DNA of 64,000 bases from contig JAUIKM010000006.1 of NCBI GenBank assembly GCA_030430495.1, positions 124,001 through 188,000 on the forward strand, read 5' to 3'. The stretch comes from a bacterium (GTDB taxonomy: Bacteria; Bacteroidota; Ignavibacteria; Kapaibacteriales; UBA7675). Below, in pieces: positions 14,293 to 23,823 of the stretch. The notes beneath the pieces are model-generated. The model was not told where the DNA came from. It was given only the letters and a program-made list of their open reading frames with translations, and did not search any database. A program made the translations under genes and the position numbers. Each line of letters begins with the position of its first letter. Position 1 is the stretch's first letter.

Positions 14293-15996
14293 ATGAATAC
14301 CAGTTCCAACCTGATCAATCTCAAGTCGCTGTTTGATCTGAGCGCGACGCTGAACTCCTCGGAAGACGACGCCTTTATCCTGGGCTCCTCACTGCTGACG
14401 GTGATGGGCAAGCTACGCACGATGCAGGCCGTGGCGTTACAGCCGGTGGGCGACGACGCGGAAACGGCCGAGCGCTGGCGCATCAGCGTGGTCAAAGGCA
14501 AGCGATTTGATCCGGGCGAGCTGCATCTGGACGTGAGCGACAGGCGCATCCTGGACCCGGCCAACGAGCAGGACCGGGCGCTGTACGAGGCCGGCCTGCG
14601 CATCTGCGTGCCGGCGGCCTACAAGGCGCGCAACCTGGCTCTGCTCTGTTTCGGCGCCGGACTCGGCGGCAAGGAGTACTCGGGCGAGGAACTCGAATAC
14701 GTCTCGCTCGTCGGCACGCTGACGGCCACGGCGCTGCTGAAGGCCGACAACCTGCGCTCGCTGACGCGCGCCAAGCGCTATCTGGAGGGCAAGACGCAAC
14801 TGCTGACGACGCTCTTTGAGATCAGCCGCGAGTTTACGACGGTGCTGGACCAGGAGGAGATTGTGCGCCTGCTGACCTACCGGCTTATGGGCCAGCTGAT
14901 GGTCAGTCGTTTTGCGCTGTTCACGCGCACGGACAACGGCGCATTTGAACTGAGTCTCAATCGGCTGAAAATAACGCCGCAGCAGCGCCACATCGACGCG
15001 CTGCAGCGCCTGAACAGCATCGTCAACACGCAGCGCACGCAGCTGGAAGATGAGGCGCTGCAACACTTTGCGCACGAAGCAGACGCGGAGATGTTCGTGC
15101 CGATGCGCGTGCAGAAGGAGACAAAGGGCGTCCTGGTGGTCGGCCGCAAACTGAACCGCATGGCCTTTGAGGAACAGGATGAAAACTATCTGGAGGCGCT
15201 GGCAAACACGGCGATGAGCGCGCTGGAGAGTGCGCGCCTCTTCCGCGAGGAACTGGAGAAAAAGCGGCTGGAAGAAGAGCTGAATATCGCCCGCAAAATC
15301 CAGCAAGGCCTGCTGCCGGACGAAGTGCCGCAATACGATCGCGTTGAACTGGCCGCGCGCAACATTCCCTCAAAACAGGTCGGCGGCGACTACTTTGACA
15401 TCATTCCGCTGGACGAGGAGAACGTGCTGCTGGCGATAGCCGACGTCTCCGGCAAGTCGACGCCCGCCGCGCTGCTGATGGCCAACACACAGGCGGCTCT
15501 GCGCGCACTGGCCGGACTGGACCTGCCGCTGGCGGTCATGGTGGCGCGCATCAACGACCTGCTGGTGCAGAATACCAGTTCCGACAAATTCGTGACCTTT
15601 TTCTGCGGCCGTTTTAATATCCCCTCCCTGCGCATGATTTACGTCAACGCCGGCCACAACCCGCCGATGCTGCTGCGCGCCAACGGGGAGATGGAAGACC
15701 TGCGCGACGGCGGCATTATCCTGGGCGTGATGGAAGCGATAATGCCCTACGAGGAAGGCGTCGTCGACCTGCGCACAGGCGACACGCTGCTGATGTACAC
15801 CGACGGCGTTTCCGAGGCGCTGGACCGCGATGGGCGTGAGTTTACGGAGGCTCGTTTGCTGGATGTGCTCAAACGCTCACAGCATGAAACGGCGGACGTG
15901 CTGGTAAACAACATCCTGCTGGAAGTGGAGCGTCACTCCTACGGCGTCAACCAGAGCGACGACATCACCATGATAGCGCTGCACTGCCGCGACTGA
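14293..15996 (+). CDS. GAF-domain SpoIIE-type (PP2C) serine phosphatase
   Basis: Soluble signalling protein of 567 residues. Two GAF-like sensory domains occupy about residues 10-155 and 165-315. A helical linker ending in RKIQQGLLP leads into a SpoIIE/RsbU-type PP2C domain whose metal-binding aspartates lie in QVGGDYFD, IADVSGKS, YTDGVSEA and SDDITMIAL. Such phosphatases dephosphorylate STAS-domain antagonists in partner-switching pathways. A STAS/RsbW pair and a second SpoIIE phosphatase lie about 7 kb downstream, so a shared network is plausible but not shown. There is no membrane segment. Confidence 0.9.
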   Translation: MNTSSNLINLKSLFDLSATLNSSEDDAFILGSSLLTVMGKLRTMQAVALQPVGDDAETAERWRISVVKGKRFDPGELHLDVSDRRILDPANEQDRALYEAGLRICVPAAYKARNLALLCFGAGLGGKEYSGEELEYVSLVGTLTATALLKADNLRSLTRAKRYLEGKTQLLTTLFEISREFTTVLDQEEIVRLLTYRLMGQLMVSRFALFTRTDNGAFELSLNRLKITPQQRHIDALQRLNSIVNTQRTQLEDEALQHFAHEADAEMFVPMRVQKETKGVLVVGRKLNRMAFEEQDENYLEALANTAMSALESARLFREELEKKRLEEELNIARKIQQGLLPDEVPQYDRVELAARNIPSKQVGGDYFDIIPLDEENVLLAIADVSGKSTPAALLMANTQAALRALAGLDLPLAVMVARINDLLVQNTSSDKFVTFFCGRFNIPSLRMIYVNAGHNPPMLLRANGEMEDLRDGGIILGVMEAIMPYEEGVVDLRTGDTLLMYTDGVSEALDRDGREFTEARLLDVLKRSQHETADVLVNNILLEVERHSYGVNQSDDITMIALHCRD

Positions 15997-17245: not shown

Positions 17246-17632
17246 ATGAGTGAAAAACTGGCTGGAAAAAGCGTGGTTGTCATTGAAGACAACGACGTGA
17301 TACGCGATCTGTTTGTCCTCCTGTTAAAGCGTCACGCCGCCAACATTCACCCATGCCGCTCCGGCAAGGAAGCGCTGGACATCCTCAAGAGCACACCCGC
17401 CGACATCGTTTTATGTGATATTATTCTGCCCGATCTGGAAGGAGTCGAAATTCTGCGGTCACTGCGTTCCTGGCCAATCAATGCAAAGGCCAAGGTCATC
17501 GCATTGACTGCTGTTGCCAACGCGGGCGACCGCGATCGTTTTCTGAAGCAAGGTTTCGACGGCTACATGCCGAAACCGATCAATCCTTCAACCTTCGTCG
17601 ACGAAATTCTCGCTATTGTCAATCAGTCCTGA
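17246..17632 (+). CDS. CheY-like single-domain response regulator
   Basis: Stand-alone receiver domain, 128 residues. Acidic residues Glu14/Asp15, phosphoacceptor Asp58 (VLCDIILPDLEGVE), Thr in ALTAVA and Lys in YMPKPINP are all present, so the domain should be phosphorylatable. There is no output domain. The gene lies 49 bases upstream of a sensor-kinase-like gene and is probably cotranscribed with it. Because that kinase lacks its phosphoacceptor histidine, the source of phosphate for this receiver is unclear; another kinase or a hybrid phosphorelay elsewhere may serve it. Confidence 0.92.
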   Translation: MSEKLAGKSVVVIEDNDVIRDLFVLLLKRHAANIHPCRSGKEALDILKSTPADIVLCDIILPDLEGVEILRSLRSWPINAKAKVIALTAVANAGDRDRFLKQGFDGYMPKPINPSTFVDEILAIVNQS

Positions 17633-17681: not shown

Positions 17682-19910
17682 ATGGAAAACTCCTTTGAAG
17701 CCGCTTTGCGTGAAGCGTCGCGAAAGCATGTTTCTCCGTACAATCTGCGCAGATCCTGGCCTGCCTTCCTGATCCTGATTCTGGCCGTGGCGGCCAGTTT
17801 TGCGGTCTACTACGTCGTGGACCGCACAGTGATTAACGACAACCGCAAAACCTATGAAAAAGCGGTCAGCTCACTTGACGCGCGCTTTTCGGCGGCGGTG
17901 GTGGAGCACGAAAACATCGTCAAGTCGATGCAGTCGCTCTACGAGATTTATCCCTTTGTGGTGCGCGATGTATTTGAGCTGTACGGCAGCATCGGTCCGC
18001 GCTCGTACAACTCCATCCAGAGCATTGGTTTTGCACCAGACATTCCGCGCGAACATCTCGGTGCGTTTTTGTACTACGCCCGCTCCGAGCGCTATCTCGA
18101 CTATGATTTTCATCCTCCGCTGATGGAGAATGAAACCGGGCGCGACACACTTTTTCCGGTTTTTTACCTGGTGCCGCTGGAGCGCAACAAAGAAGCGTTG
18201 CAGGGGTTTGACTTGTCGTCCGACCCGATGTTGCTCGCGACCCTGCGTCGAGCAGCATTGGAAGATCGCGTGGCGGCGTCGCCCTTCTACCAGGTGCGCA
18301 AACCCGATTCGCTTGGATTTATCCTGACGGCCTACGTCAGCGATGTTGAAGACTCCTCCTCCTCAGCCGGCATTCGCTCCCTTAATGTCACCGGTAATAT
18401 TTTCATCGAGGTGCTGGCGCGCGAGTTTTTCACCAATGCGGTGGGCGAGGGGACGCCGACGGATACGACTGTGGTCTTCGAATGCCTTGACAAACAGAAA
18501 GATGGCAGTGAGTTATCGGTATTCAGGTCGCGCAATTTTGAGGAAATCGGTTTTGATCACGAAGCGCTGTTCAACGAGGACAAGGCGCTGCACATCGCCG
18601 ATCGCGATCTGATAGTGCGCATAAAAACGATTCCAAACTTCGGCGGCGAGTTTTACAACAGCCTGCCGATTCTCTCATTGATCGGGGCTTTGATTTCCAG
18701 CGTGCTGCTGTTTCTGTTCGTCATCTCGATCAGAACGAGCCAGGCCCGCGCCCTTGACCTGGCCGACCGCATGACCACGGCCCAGCGCCGCATCGTCGAT
18801 TCGTCCAAGGACATGATCGGCGTGTACGACCTGGAAGGCGAGTGGAAAGGCATCAACCGCGCCATGGTCGACATTCTGGGCTACAGCCAGCAGGAGTTCG
18901 TCGGGACAAACGTATTCGACTATGTGATCGACGAAGATCGCGAGCAGATGCGCGCCGCGGTCAACAATGCCGCAAGCGAACAGAATGTGCACCTGGAAGT
19001 GCGAATGAAACACAAGAGCGGCGAGGTGCGCTGGATCAGTTGGAACAGTACCGTCTCGCGCGCCGACGCGCTGGTGTACTCAACCGGTCGCGACGTCACC
19101 GATCGCAAGTACGCCGAAAAACAGCTGGCCATCCAGGGACGCCAGGTGGAGCTGGCGCGTCAGTTCGCCGTTGAGTCCGAGTTGTACCAGATGCACTTCA
19201 TGCGGGACATCAGTTATTACTTCCGTAACTCGCTGACAAGCATAGTGGGGTATCTGCAGATGGTGACGGAGAAAATGTATCAGGACGAACAGCAGCGCGA
19301 CGAGTTCTCGGCCGTAGCCAAACGCAGCTCGGAAGAACTGCTGACGCGCGTGGACGACCTGATGGACGTGGCCCGCGTCGAACACCGCGGTCTCTCGCAG
19401 TTGCCGGAACAGCAGCGCCTGCCGATCCGTTCGACCTTCGAAGAAAGCGTCGACATGCTGCGGCACCAGACGGGCAAGGAAGTCAACATTCTGTTGGACG
19501 ACGCCATCAGCGACTCCTTCGCCATTCGCGTGAACCGCGAGTCATTCGACAAGATTCTGTCCGATCTGCTCGGTGCCGCTTCGTCGGGGCGCAGCGTGAT
19601 TGACGCGCACATTCTGGTGGAGGTGAACACCTTTGAAAACATCGCGGAAATTCAGATGTTGATCAAGGCCACGCCGAAATCGCAGCGCATGCTCGACATT
19701 TACAAGGGAGCAACGGACGTATCGCTGATCGAACATTTGCAAAATGACGAAGACGATATAATATTCCGGCTGGCCACCAGCGCTTCGGTCATTCGCATGT
19801 TCCAGGGCATGGTGGTGGTCGATTCGCTGGACGAAGAGAACATCGTCATGTCGATCAACCTTCCTTGCCGTGAAATGCCGACCGATGTCGGCGCGGTTGA
19901 TTCTGATTGA
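17682..19910 (+). CDS. CHASE-PAS sensor with degenerate histidine kinase core
   Basis: Membrane sensor of 742 residues. TM1 (about 25-50) and TM2 (about 327-350) flank a periplasmic CHASE domain, recognised by RDTLFPVFYLVPLERNKEAL followed by GFDLSSDP. A PAS domain covers about 370-475 (DMIGVYDLEG to STGRDVTDRK). The kinase core is altered: where the H-box normally has H-E-x-R-x-P, the sequence reads DISYYFRNSL, placing Tyr512 at the phosphoacceptor position. In the ATPase region the N-box asparagine is replaced (DLLGAA, Ala632), and no DxGxG motif is found. It is therefore probably a pseudokinase that signals by conformation. The gene follows a CheY-like receiver and precedes a DUF4920 lipoprotein gene. 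Confidence 0.88.
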   Translation: MENSFEAALREASRKHVSPYNLRRSWPAFLILILAVAASFAVYYVVDRTVINDNRKTYEKAVSSLDARFSAAVVEHENIVKSMQSLYEIYPFVVRDVFELYGSIGPRSYNSIQSIGFAPDIPREHLGAFLYYARSERYLDYDFHPPLMENETGRDTLFPVFYLVPLERNKEALQGFDLSSDPMLLATLRRAALEDRVAASPFYQVRKPDSLGFILTAYVSDVEDSSSSAGIRSLNVTGNIFIEVLAREFFTNAVGEGTPTDTTVVFECLDKQKDGSELSVFRSRNFEEIGFDHEALFNEDKALHIADRDLIVRIKTIPNFGGEFYNSLPILSLIGALISSVLLFLFVISIRTSQARALDLADRMTTAQRRIVDSSKDMIGVYDLEGEWKGINRAMVDILGYSQQEFVGTNVFDYVIDEDREQMRAAVNNAASEQNVHLEVRMKHKSGEVRWISWNSTVSRADALVYSTGRDVTDRKYAEKQLAIQGRQVELARQFAVESELYQMHFMRDISYYFRNSLTSIVGYLQMVTEKMYQDEQQRDEFSAVAKRSSEELLTRVDDLMDVARVEHRGLSQLPEQQRLPIRSTFEESVDMLRHQTGKEVNILLDDAISDSFAIRVNRESFDKILSDLLGAASSGRSVIDAHILVEVNTFENIAEIQMLIKATPKSQRMLDIYKGATDVSLIEHLQNDEDDIIFRLATSASVIRMFQGMVVVDSLDEENIVMSINLPCREMPTDVGAVDSD

Positions 19911-19946
19911 TCAATGCAGCAGCAGGACCTGGAGGAAGAGGCAGCG

Positions 19947-20585
19947 ATGTTAATTCACAAACCACTCAACCAACATATGGAGCCGAAAGTGAGAAGCGTA
20001 TCTTTATGCGGACTGCTGCTGACCGCGCTCTTGATTGGAAATATGTCGTGCGGCAGCAAGGCATATCAAAACGACAACGTCGAACACGAATCCGCAACGA
20101 TGTCCGCTGTCGAAGAACCGCCGGCGGACAACGCGGAGTCAATGGATGATACGGAAGCCGGGCAAGCCGGGAATGCGCCTGCCGGCGCCGATTCCGACGC
20201 TCGCATTTACGGCGCACAGCCGACGCTTGCGAGTCAGCCGGCGCTCGGCCTGCGCGAAGCCATCGAACGCACCAGCGCCGGGGAGGAGACGATCCGCCTG
20301 CACGGCGAAGTAGTCGATGTTTGCCGGAAGAAAGGCTGCTGGATGATGCTGCGCGACGGCGCGGACGAAGTGCGCGTGACGTTCAAGGATTACGGCTTTT
20401 TTGTGCCCGTCGATCTTTCCGGCTCCGAGGTAACCGTCGAAGGCGTCCTGCAGTCCAAAGTGCTGACGGAAGCCGAAGCGCGGCACTACGCCGAAGACGC
20501 CGGGTCCACGCCGCAGGAAATCGCGGCTATCGTAGGAGATCAGACTGAATACTCCTTTGTCGCGACCAGCGTGCAGGTCAATTAA
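19947..20585 (+). CDS. DUF4920 lipoprotein
   Basis: Predicted exported lipoprotein, 212 residues from ATG 19947, which has a strong GGAGGAAGAGG just upstream. ATG 19977 would give a more usual signal peptide length. A hydrophobic LLLTALLIG segment ends in NMSC, a lipobox-like site of the relaxed kind seen in Bacteroidota. A low-complexity acidic linker follows, then a DUF4920 domain (about residues 90-212) with LHGEVVDVCRKKGCWMML, VTFKDYGFFVPVD and ARHYAEDAG. DUF4920 resembles OB-fold domains of periplasmic proteins; its role is unknown. It sits between the pseudokinase and a membrane phosphatase gene, so an envelope-stress or redox input to that network is possible. Confidence 0.8.
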   Translation: MLIHKPLNQHMEPKVRSVSLCGLLLTALLIGNMSCGSKAYQNDNVEHESATMSAVEEPPADNAESMDDTEAGQAGNAPAGADSDARIYGAQPTLASQPALGLREAIERTSAGEETIRLHGEVVDVCRKKGCWMMLRDGADEVRVTFKDYGFFVPVDLSGSEVTVEGVLQSKVLTEAEARHYAEDAGSTPQEIAAIVGDQTEYSFVATSVQVN

Positions 20586-20727
20586 CAGATTGCCGCGGCG
20601 CGTCCGCGTTGACGTGCCGTACTTTCTGCTGCGCACGTGAGAAGTCCGGCGTCGGGCTGGAACTTTCCGCGCGCCGTGCCGTAGGGGAAAGCCGGAATTT
20701 TTCAGCGTTCAAACGAGAAATGCATTG

Positions 20728-22881
20728 ATGACGCAGCAGTCGATCCGGCAAATTTTCCATCGACCGCGCTTTCGCCTGGCTGCTTTCCTGGCGCTGGCGG
20801 GCGCTGGAATTCTGGCGCTGCAATTCTTTTTTCTGGCACACGGCGACTCCTCCGTGCGGCTGAGCGCCGCCGAGCAGATCGTGCACGCACTCATCACCGT
20901 CGTGACGCTCCTCTCTCTTGCCGGACTTGCTTTACTGATACACCGACCGGAAACGCAATTCGGCAGTCCTTCCGAGACATTTCGACGTGCAAGTTCATAC
21001 AGCGTACTGGGTTCGCTCGGCATTCTGCTGATTATCGGCTGTCTCAGCGTCTGGGACATCGGCGGTCAGTCGGCGGCGGGCCTTGGCACCTGTCTGCTGG
21101 TGACGCTGCTGGGCGTGCCGATGCTTCTGCTCTCGCTGCGCCAACTCTACTGGCTCGATCGCCTGGCGCAGTTGCGTCCGCACAAATACTCGCGCCGTGT
21201 GCGCGCCATCATTTTTGGCGGCGCCGGACTTGTCATGTTCGTCGAAGTGTTGCGCTCGGCCAACATGCCCAGCGTGGGTACGCTCAGCGCCATCCTCGTG
21301 GCCGTCATCGCGATTGCGACGCTCTTTTCGGGTTGGCGTCGCGCCTGGCTTAGTTCACTCAGCAAGAGCGAGAAATACAAAGGTTTTGCCGTTTCCTTTC
21401 TGGGATCGGTACTGTCCGTCTGCATTCTGGTGCTGCTGAACAGCGGCAGCTCGGACGCCGGCACGGTGCTGCGCCGCGTGCTGCCGGGAGCGGACGTGCT
21501 GACGACATTGATTTTTGTGCTGGTGTGCCTCAACTATGCGCGCATCAGCATTGTATTGTTGCTGTCCCTGCCCACGGCCGGCGTGATGGACCGCCGCCTG
21601 CGGGAGGTGCGCGCGCTGGCGACGCTGAGCCGGAACATTACGCACGTCAACGACTCGGGCGAACTGATGCGTTCGGTGGCGATCATGGTGCGGGACGTAT
21701 GCGGTGCTCAAGCTGTCTGGATCGAACGAATCGATCAGAAAAAGGAAATCAGCTACGCTCTGGGCATCAAGCGCAATGCGCTCAAACGCCTGTACAAGGG
21801 CGGTCACCTGCAGTCGCTGCTGGACGCGGAAAAGTACTGTTTCCACGCCGACGATCTGGACAAACTGCCGCAGCTGCAGGACTTGCGTCTGGACTCCGCC
21901 CGCAACATCCGCTCGCTCATGGTTGCGCCGCTGATGCAGGACCGCAAGATTGTCGGAGCGCTCTTTGCCGGTCATCCGGACGAATTTGTTTTTGAGCACG
22001 AGGACGTCGCTCTGTTGACGGCTTTTGCGGACACGGTCAGCATCGCGCTCGAAAACGCCTGGCTCTTTGAGAAGTCGATGAAGTCGGAGCGCTACAAAAG
22101 TCAAATGCGCGTGGCGCACGATGTACAGCGCAAGCTGCTGCCCGAGAGCGTGCCGCGCGTGGCAGGGCTCGATATTGCCGCCTATTCCTCTCCGGCCTAC
22201 GAGGTCGGCGGCGATTACTACGACTTTGTGCGACTGGCCGACGACCGTCTGTGCGCGGTTGTGGCGGACGTCTCCGGCAAGGGTATTTCGGCCGCTTTTT
22301 ACATGGCTGAAATCAAGGGCATCGTGCTTGCGTTGGCGCCCGAGTGCGGTTCACCCGGTGAGCTGGTTTGCAAGGTCAACAAGGCCGTGCACGGCTCGAT
22401 GGAAAAGCGGTCGTTTATCACGATGATCGCCGTGGCCTGGGATCCACACGCCGCCGAGCTGAGCCTCGTGCGCGCCGGACACACGCCGCTGTTGATCCAT
22501 CAGGACGGGCGCACGCAAACCTACACGCCCAAAGGCCTGGGCGTCGGACTCGTCGGACCCGGAATTTTTGATTCCGCCCTGCAGGAGATGACGCTTGACG
22601 TTCATCCGGGCGACAAGGTTCTGCTGTTCACGGACGGCGTGAACGAAGTCCACAATGAGGACAAGGGTGAGTTGGGGCTGGAGCGCCTCAAGGACATTTT
22701 GTCGGAACACGATAATTTCAAGGCTGAAAGCCTGCTGGGCCGTATCGTTCGCCTGGTTGCGGAATTCGGCGGAGAGGTGTTGCAGCACGACGATGTGACC
22801 GTCGTAACGATGATTTTTGGCGAGGGTGTGGGACAGGAGGCAAATCGCGACCGCAAACAAGCTGAGGCGGTTGTGAATTAA
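20728..22881 (+). CDS. Multi-pass membrane GAF-SpoIIE (PP2C) phosphatase
   Basis: Protein of 717 residues. The first 290 residues contain about eight hydrophobic segments, for example FLALAGAGILALQFFFLAH and GILLIIGCLSVWDIG, a membrane module without an obvious family. A GAF domain (about 295-450) follows, then a SpoIIE/RsbU-type PP2C domain from VAHDVQRKLLPESVP to the end, with metal-site motifs YEVGGDYYD, VADVSGKG, FTDGVNEV and HDDVTVV. It probably dephosphorylates a STAS antagonist; a STAS gene begins 78 bases downstream. A TTG at 20725 is the alternative start. It is the likely membrane input of the local partner-switching module. Confidence 0.9.
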   Translation: MTQQSIRQIFHRPRFRLAAFLALAGAGILALQFFFLAHGDSSVRLSAAEQIVHALITVVTLLSLAGLALLIHRPETQFGSPSETFRRASSYSVLGSLGILLIIGCLSVWDIGGQSAAGLGTCLLVTLLGVPMLLLSLRQLYWLDRLAQLRPHKYSRRVRAIIFGGAGLVMFVEVLRSANMPSVGTLSAILVAVIAIATLFSGWRRAWLSSLSKSEKYKGFAVSFLGSVLSVCILVLLNSGSSDAGTVLRRVLPGADVLTTLIFVLVCLNYARISIVLLLSLPTAGVMDRRLREVRALATLSRNITHVNDSGELMRSVAIMVRDVCGAQAVWIERIDQKKEISYALGIKRNALKRLYKGGHLQSLLDAEKYCFHADDLDKLPQLQDLRLDSARNIRSLMVAPLMQDRKIVGALFAGHPDEFVFEHEDVALLTAFADTVSIALENAWLFEKSMKSERYKSQMRVAHDVQRKLLPESVPRVAGLDIAAYSSPAYEVGGDYYDFVRLADDRLCAVVADVSGKGISAAFYMAEIKGIVLALAPECGSPGELVCKVNKAVHGSMEKRSFITMIAVAWDPHAAELSLVRAGHTPLLIHQDGRTQTYTPKGLGVGLVGPGIFDSALQEMTLDVHPGDKVLLFTDGVNEVHNEDKGELGLERLKDILSEHDNFKAESLLGRIVRLVAEFGGEVLQHDDVTVVTMIFGEGVGQEANRDRKQAEAVVN

Positions 22882-22959
22882 CGCGGTGCGACCGTATATT
22901 GCGGGTTCGCACCCAGTCACATGGGATAACTGGATTCATTCTCGTTCAGGCCGCATGCT

Positions 22960-23385
22960 ATGAGCAATTTTTCAATATCCGTTCGTAATCACGATCTGGC
23001 GACCGTCCTGCACATCAGTGGATTCCTTGATGCGCATACGGCCCCGCAACTGGAAAGCCGGCTCGAAAGTCTGATCAAGGACGGCGTCTACAAACTCGTC
23101 GTAAATTTCGACGAGTTGGATTACATCAGCAGCGCCGGCCTTGGTGTTTTTATGGTGTTTATTGAAGAGGTCCGCAGCAACGAGGGCGATATTAAACTCG
23201 TTCAAATGAAACCAAAAGTCTTTACTGTCTTTGACCTTCTTGGTTTTCCGATGCTCTTCGACATTCTCGACAACGAAGATGAAGCTTTTGTCCGGTTCAG
23301 CGAAAAAGGCGGCAGCCAGGACTCGTCGTCGGACGCGGAACAGGATGTAAATGATTCCAGTGAGATTCGGCGGGGCCCGCAATAG
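22960..23385 (+). CDS. STAS-domain anti-sigma factor antagonist
   Basis: SpoIIAA/RsbV-like protein of 141 residues. The STAS domain (residues 1-110) has ISGFLDAHTAPQLE and the phospho-site region DYISSAGLGVF; Ser58 aligns with the serine phosphorylated by RsbW-type kinases. The C-terminal 30 residues are a polar, Asp/Ser-rich tail not found in the short classical antagonists. In partner switching the unphosphorylated form binds the anti-sigma kinase. The RsbW-like gene starts three bases after its stop codon, and a SpoIIE phosphatase gene lies directly upstream, forming a complete switching unit. Confidence 0.93.
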   Translation: MSNFSISVRNHDLATVLHISGFLDAHTAPQLESRLESLIKDGVYKLVVNFDELDYISSAGLGVFMVFIEEVRSNEGDIKLVQMKPKVFTVFDLLGFPMLFDILDNEDEAFVRFSEKGGSQDSSSDAEQDVNDSSEIRRGPQ

Positions 23386-23388
23386 ACG

Positions 23389-23823
23389 ATGGCTGCATTT
23401 AAACCAAATCGCATTTGTGTTCCCGGCAGTACGTCCGAGCTGCACCGCGTTCGCGCCTTTGTTGAAGCGCGCGCCCGGCAGTGCGGCGTTGGCGAACAGG
23501 GCGTCTACAATATTACTCTGGCCGTGGACGAGGCCTGTTCCAACGTTATCCGCCACGCGTACAAACACGATCAGGGCCGCGAGTTCTGCGTCACGATCGA
23601 GATCAACGACAACGAACTGATCATCGAAATTTCCGACAGCGGCGACGCCTTTGACCCGATGACTATCCGCACGCCGAACATGAAGGAATACTTTGAGAAT
23701 TTTCGTCACGGCGGACTGGGCATCAGCATTATCCGCCGCGTGGTCGATAAAATCGAATACCTGCCTGCGAGCGCCGGCCGTCCGTTTAACATTTTGAAGT
23801 TGATAAAATCCCTCCGCGATTGA
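23389..23823 (+). CDS. RsbW/SpoIIAB-like serine kinase (anti-sigma factor type)
   Basis: GHKL-fold ATPase of 144 residues. The N-box is TLAVDEACSNVIRHAY, the G1 box is ISDSGDAFDP and the G2 region is HGGLGISIIRRVVD, so ATP binding should be intact. Relatives phosphorylate a STAS antagonist and bind a target sigma factor or other partner. It is encoded three bases after the STAS gene. No sigma factor is encoded nearby, so its downstream target is unknown; some members control enzymes or secondary-messenger proteins instead of sigma factors. Confidence 0.92.
   Translation: MAAFKPNRICVPGSTSELHRVRAFVEARARQCGVGEQGVYNITLAVDEACSNVIRHAYKHDQGREFCVTIEINDNELIIEISDSGDAFDPMTIRTPNMKEYFENFRHGGLGISIIRRVVDKIEYLPASAGRPFNILKLIKSLRD

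Follow-up and report, generated by a model that had tools for sequence, protein, structure and literature searches.

In the window, by which we mean the whole 64,000-nucleotide stretch of DNA analysed, one gene encodes pHK, a pseudo-histidine kinase of the DivL and PhyT kind rather than a representative of a new category. The family of pHK has been kept together with a small partner, a single-domain response regulator, across a bacterial order, which suggests that pHK acts by taking hold of that partner and probably switching it off. Our preferred reading is that a kinase-dead sensor docks on the receiver and lowers receiver phosphorylation; taken as a whole, we hold it tentatively, a little short of calling it probable. 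Comparison with relatives showed the loss of the kinase features, apparent purifying selection, and the parallel conservation and decay of the putative docking face and the receiver.

Domain organization and lost motifs of pHK

The first-pass annotation of this DNA had described a sensor with CHASE and PAS domains and two membrane helices that lacked the motifs of a working histidine kinase, and the profile searches and structure models bore out this architecture. The features of the gene are as follows.

17682..19910, + strand: pHK, CHASE-PAS-DHp-degenerate CA pseudo-histidine kinase, 742 aa (AlphaFold2 pLDDT 84.9)
18000..18506, + strand: CHASE extracytoplasmic sensor domain, residues 107-275 (Pfam PF03924, E 4.7e-18)
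18852..19061, + strand: PAS domain, residues 391-460 (PF08447, E 1.4e-14)
19194..19385, + strand: HisKA/DHp domain without phosphoacceptor His, residues 505-568 (PF00512, E 1.1e-7)
19215..19217, + strand: Tyr512 codon at the H-box His position (alignment with relatives)
19404..19886, + strand: degenerate CA domain, residues 575-735 (Bergerat-type fold without N, G1 and G2 boxes)

The reading frame, which had been reported as intact, indeed opened with ATG and ran for 742 codons in which internal stops were absent. The AlphaFold2 model placed the CHASE module between two predicted long helices, which begin at residues 26 and 323. The model of the sensor region (residues 51-317) best matched the CHASE domain of Xanthomonas PcrK (6k62; Z 23.9, rmsd 3.0, 242 aligned). 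As a separate observation, the segment that joins the second membrane helix to PAS (around TSQARALDLADRMTTAQRRIVD; residues 340-379, window 18699-18818) was the most conserved stretch of the family, with A357, A361, T365, Q368-I371, D377 and I379 invariant in 59 pHK members, receiver-less ones included.

The DHp region scored 32.3 bits against a cut-off of 26.9 for PF00512, which places it among the HisKA-type DHp domains, and its helical hairpin was seen both in the full-length model and in the model of residues 480-742 alone. Tyr512, in DISYYFRNSL, aligned column for column with the H-box histidine of relatives (DLSHNLRNAL and similar), as the first-pass annotation had proposed; Pfam and the orthologue alignment both placed the H-box at 512 and not elsewhere in the protein. 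The claim that Ala632 replaces the N-box asparagine was upheld by alignment with the canonical kinase PDB 7z8n (GAA vs GNA), and the reported loss of the ATP-binding motifs agreed with the lack of any HATPase_c match to pHK in Pfam at E up to 10. With neither a phosphoacceptor histidine nor an HATPase_c match, pHK is, as judged from its sequence, not a catalytically competent HisKA kinase.

Residues 480-742 folded alone gave a pLDDT of 90, and the fold of the CA domain was compared with the CA domains of WalK/YycG, VicK-like and ThkA proteins (Z about 13.6-13.9, rmsd about 3, 142-146 aligned). In the predicted structure, the ATP motifs of the CA domain are gone and its fold is kept. The degenerate domain also had conserved residues of its own, including D689 in 71/71 members reaching the column, N649 in 61 and G709 in 64 (residues 649, 689 and 709 at 19626-19628, 19746-19748 and 19806-19808). 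D689 lay near the expected position of the ATP lid and G2 box. These conserved residues suggest a new use of the domain.

An order-wide family that has repeatedly changed its H-box residue

The family set comprised 73 non-redundant sequences, most of them full-length, drawn from a search of 61 related genomes and from named genomes that were scanned as well; the relatives from the named genomes were nearly all Candidatus Kapaibacterium, Kapabacteria, Ignavibacteria or Bacteroidetes MAGs. The CHASE-PAS-HisKA family of pHK was found throughout the order. HisKA matched 56 of the 59 members scanned and HATPase_c matched none of them, and the loss of the ATP site extended to an outgroup from another order (L120, L122, L130). 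By these profile results, the whole family, and not the window protein alone, is without a recognisable ATP site. The loss seen in the window protein is thus not peculiar to it, being apparently family-wide for the ATP motifs, with His still present in 43/73 members.

The H-box column (n=73) contained H 43, F 14, R 6, Q 3, D 3, Y 2, L 1 and E 1. The first-pass annotation had asked after tyrosine in homologues; the three nearest relatives carried Phe at 512 and another lineage carried Tyr or Phe, so the replacement of histidine is shared and Tyr itself, with its 2/73, is not conserved. A sequencing error at codon 512 is unlikely in view of the same residues. No close homologue had His, and the His-bearing members stood at only about 30-38% identity to the window protein, their usual motif being HQLRN or HKLRN. 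As a control, the 30 best other HisKA domains that this genome encodes were read at the same column by fixed offset, and 29 showed His; the exception, L171, was a one-residue offset error with its His visible. Tyr512 is therefore not a chance reading. An acidic residue at H+1 was found in 2/73 family members vs 28/30 of the other kinases of the same genome (fixed offset), and H+4 was N or T in 64/73, the exceptions being the receiver-less family f4 (S, D, Q) and G008. A phosphoacceptor moved to H+1 in G034, G014 and f26 (TDHLRD, SQHFRT) was considered and was unsupported, since the flanking R and L keep the helix register.

On a tree of 66 rows built without the H-box columns, the state of the His column changed at least six times (Y, F, R, D, E, Q). 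L118 (Leu), a fragment omitted from this tree, fell inside the His clade in an earlier tree. Parsimony cannot fix the direction of these changes; loss is the natural direction because the domain is homologous to other HisKA domains.

Selection was estimated from close pairs of His-less members, and the nearest relative of the window protein, at 49% identity, is too distant for this test. The dN/dS was 0.04-0.065 for L092, L101 and L136 (Phe), 0.106 for the L098-L109 pair (Phe), with dS near saturation, and 0.117 for the L108-L112 pair (Tyr and Phe); it was low in the CA domain too, in close pairs of three His-less groups. These ratios indicate that the His-less relatives are under strong purifying selection and that the protein is maintained after the loss of His. 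The earlier claim that the window protein is kept by selection is supported by the dN/dS of 0.04-0.12 in its His-less relatives, and the protein itself is probably under selection by analogy with them. The loss of catalytic motifs alone would suit a decaying pseudogene product or a sequencing artefact, an explanation that we regard as scarcely credible, given the intact frame, the Phe at 512 in the nearest relatives and the low dN/dS of other His-less members, CA domain included.

The partner receiver and the conserved face of the DHp domain

Two further features bear on the partner of pHK.

17246..17632, + strand: single-domain response regulator, 128 aa, with D58, T88 and K110 (PF00072, E 4.9e-22)
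19224..19250, + strand: R515 (H+3), N516 (H+4), T519 (H+7) and G523 (H+11), the alpha1 face of pHK that is conserved in receiver-adjacent members

A receiver of the same family was encoded upstream of pHK, at a distance of no more than about 100 bp, in 49 members, the L110 receiver being recognised by profile search. E14, D15, D58, T88 and K110 were invariant in 45 aligned orthologues adjacent to pHK, the residues expected of a receiver, and the protein resembled DivK (1m5t, E 1.8e-15) among several near-equal matches. The first-pass annotation had named this adjacent CheY-like receiver or the downstream phosphatase as the possible partner of pHK. The comparison of genomes supports the receiver, conserved as it is beside pHK, as the partner and makes the phosphatase an unlikely one. 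Only in the window's family, f10 and f5 were STAS and RsbW-like proteins and the downstream PP2C phosphatase (20725-22881) neighbours of pHK. Most families do not have the phosphatase next to pHK, and for this reason it was rejected, as a general rule, as the conserved partner.

The surroundings of the pair varied. Two GAF-SpoIIE phosphatases, STAS and the RsbW-like ATPase form a partner-switching set at window 14293-15996 and 20725-23823, and their gene order was conserved in the window's family, f10 and f5. A DUF4920 protein was encoded directly downstream of pHK at 19914-20585, and again in G002 and G011, not in G001. In most lineages, a cluster upstream of the pair encoded an OmpA-family protein along with other large proteins, some of which had signal-peptide-like starts; the OmpA-family protein just upstream of the receiver or sensor was Pfam-checked at L072, L102 and L105 and similarity-clustered in 42. 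A search for a conserved third gene did not find this cluster at the window's own locus. The gene arrangement of the window is lineage-specific and is not to be used for inferring function. A second, different receiver-domain gene lay immediately downstream of the sensor in L092, L096, L097, L099, L100, L108, L112 and L136; no second response regulator was conserved beside the pair across families.

In five genomes of f6, the receiver was encoded away from pHK and was recognised at E 1e-40 to 1e-47 vs a background of about 1e-22 to 1e-27. It had stayed with the OmpA-family cluster, adjoining the OmpA-family gene in G023, and the sensor lay elsewhere. D58 was present in the three f6 receivers read, and R/N/T on the alpha1 of pHK were also kept there. 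No receiver of this family rose above background in the nine pHK-less genomes of the order tested outside genus g10. That genus of f8 (8 genomes, L182-L189) has lost pHK and kept the receiver, and D58 was replaced by Asn in 8/8, with T88 and K110 kept; in L187 and L189, the receiver adjoined the same flavin-reductase-like gene as in the window. The D58N pattern is confined to one genus and is probably one event. It would suit a receiver that has its own output and for which phosphorylation is of consequence only in the presence of pHK. The survival of this receiver without its phosphosite suggests that pHK acts upstream of the receiver, on its phosphorylation.

The conservation of the alpha1 face followed the receiver. 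In the receiver-adjacent members, R515 was present in 49/49, N or T at 516 in 48/49, T519 in 48/49 with one Ser, and G523 in 49/49. In f4, f5, G060 and G280, where the receiver is absent genome-wide and pHK is kept, this face drifts: T519 has become V, I, F or S in most receiver-less pHKs (G034 and G014 of f4 retain it), and N516 has become S, D or Q in f4. Column identity in the H-box region stood at 0.59 when a receiver was adjacent and at 0.40 when none was; for CHASE (0.34 vs 0.37) and CA (0.27 vs 0.28) it did not differ. The group without still included the f6 genomes, whose receiver is unlinked. An independent-pair sign test on the tree had only four receiver losses to draw on and cannot reach 0.05. 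As evidence of coevolution, the way in which the docking face and the receiver are kept or decay together is a consistent pattern, not a statistically proven one.

Proposed mechanism, alternatives and comparison with known systems

In the mechanism that we favour, the membrane sensor, with CHASE outside and PAS inside, would dock through its DHp domain onto the single-domain receiver encoded upstream. pHK would be unable to phosphorylate this receiver, because it is without a recognisable ATP-binding site, the acidic residue after the His position, and His itself; presumably the receiver gets its phosphate from another kinase or from acetyl phosphate. The sensor would most likely then remove the receiver phosphate through Asn516, which occupies H+4, the position of the HisKA phosphatase residue (Asn or Thr), under the control of the CHASE/PAS signal. 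Docking, and a phosphatase rather than a passive reading of the receiver, we infer from the pattern of conserved residues. In the HisKA proteins tested, CrdS and HK853, an acidic H+1 was needed only for the kinase and Asn/Thr at H+4 only for the phosphatase, and CrdS H371A still shortened the half-life of CrdA~P from 53.5 min without enzyme to 2.6 min, so that most of the phosphatase activity of CrdS outlasted the removal of His (PMC3510030). The loss of the acidic H+1 together with the retention of H+4, in 48/49 members beside the receiver, is the signature expected of a phosphatase-only sensor. Against a phosphatase, removal of His abolished the phosphatase activity of PleC, as cited in PMC3510030, and G008 keeps the receiver and has Asp at H+4, a residue that killed the phosphatase activity of CrdS (PMC3510030). 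H+4 alone is no proof either, because DivL keeps Thr at this position and is without phosphatase activity (PMC4211667). The more far-reaching proposal, that the order-wide CHASE family is a dedicated ATP- and His-independent phosphatase of one single-domain receiver whose phosphate comes from elsewhere, seems to us possible though somewhat doubtful. If true, the family would form a two-component system that runs one way, with the cognate sensor acting solely to remove phosphate.

The main and serious rival to the phosphatase is a passive reader, in which pHK would bind the phosphorylated receiver unchanged and inform another protein, reversing the direction of signalling, with CHASE/PAS tuning the response. 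DivL, with its H-box Tyr, binds DivK~P and is neither kinase nor phosphatase, and its R553 (H+3) and T557 (H+7) are needed for this binding (PMC4211667); R515 and T519 of pHK occupy the same positions, pHK matches DivL 4q20 at E 6.9e-5, and the receiver has DivK among its near-equal matches. Several results pull the other way. Genus g10 keeps the receiver after the loss of pHK, so the receiver seems to have another output; DivL retains Glu at H+1 and weak ATP binding, whereas in the pHK family neither the acidic residue nor any recognisable ATP motif is left; and no candidate protein for pHK to control emerged. On balance we consider such a reader rather unlikely, though not by much. The first-pass annotation had proposed that pHK regulates its partner by conformation; this remains one of the two leading mechanisms, and the conservation fits a receiver phosphatase at least as well.

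His is kept in 37/49 receiver-adjacent members, none of which, among those scanned, has an ATP site, and this retention indicates that those lineages make some use of His. A phosphotransferase of the PhyT, ChpT or Spo0B type, in which the His-bearing relatives relay phosphate between the receiver and another regulator and the Tyr offshoot in the window only docks, would account for it. PhyT uses its His to pass phosphate from a single-domain receiver on to PhyR (PMC5898713), and the HQLRN and HKLRN motifs share the spacing of its HRxxN. A PhyT-like relay is possible, by analogy, in the His-bearing relatives. As an explanation of pHK it is quite unlikely: the window protein has no phosphoacceptor His, the His state changed at least four times within receiver-bearing lineages without loss of the receiver, and the pair has no conserved second regulator beside it. 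That f4, f5, G060 and G280 keep pHK without an orthologous receiver argues for some receiver-independent role, such as a scaffold or heterodimer partner acting on another histidine kinase in the manner of RetS and GacS, with the receiver secondary. The kinase region of RetS was among the fold matches (Z 13.2), as were many ordinary kinases. The most constrained DHp surface tracks the receiver, however, and no kinase linked to pHK emerged as a candidate partner, so we judge this explanation improbable.

The conservation pattern suggests that the pair needs the receiver Asp, the docking face and the H+4 residue, and not the His, the ATP site or the acidic H+1. One family in a single order presents all stages, with His kept, His lost, the receiver lost and the sensor lost, and these natural variants make signalling by a histidine-kinase scaffold without kinase chemistry directly testable. 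A search of the literature on histidine kinases of Kapabacteria found nothing relevant. Well-studied pseudo-histidine kinases are few, and those found in the literature, DivL and PhyT, are alphaproteobacterial.

ChpT and Spo0B have a histidine-kinase-like dimer fold, as does pHK, and the CA-like domain of ChpT was found to contain no ATP. Unlike the window protein, both depend on His. They are not known to have a membrane sensor, and neither a Spo0B nor a ChpT structure was among the fold matches listed for pHK. CrdS and HK853 (H-E/D-x-x-T/N) share with pHK the Asn/Thr at H+4, the kinase-specific H+1 being dispensable for their phosphatase; unlike pHK, they are complete bifunctional kinases with His and an ATP site.

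PhyT (formerly PhyP), of the general stress response of Sphingomonas melonis, is membrane-anchored like pHK and likewise combines a putative periplasmic sensor with a degenerate ATPase domain. Both proteins have a non-acidic residue after the His position, Asn at H+4 and a single-domain receiver with which they pair. PhyT needs His for phosphotransfer, whereas the window protein has none; the DHp motif subclass of PhyT (HRxxN) differs from that of pHK, and no PhyR-like regulator is linked to pHK.

DivL of Caulobacter crescentus (PDB 4q20), the nearest Tyr-bearing relative with a solved structure, resembles pHK in its H-box Tyr, its HisKA-type DHp with PAS input and its single-domain receiver partner, DivK, and its docking residues Arg at H+3 and Thr at H+7 recur in pHK. 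The similarity of pHK to 4q20 is limited to the DHp region, so pHK is not a DivL orthologue. DivL has multiple PAS domains, in contrast to the CHASE domain, two membrane helices and single PAS of pHK; DivL keeps Glu at H+1 and weak ATP binding, whereas the CA domain of pHK has no HATPase_c match and its acidic H+1 is gone. Also unlike DivL, the pHK family appears to have lost His repeatedly within one order, and the Tyr itself is unconserved (Y, F, R, D, E, Q).
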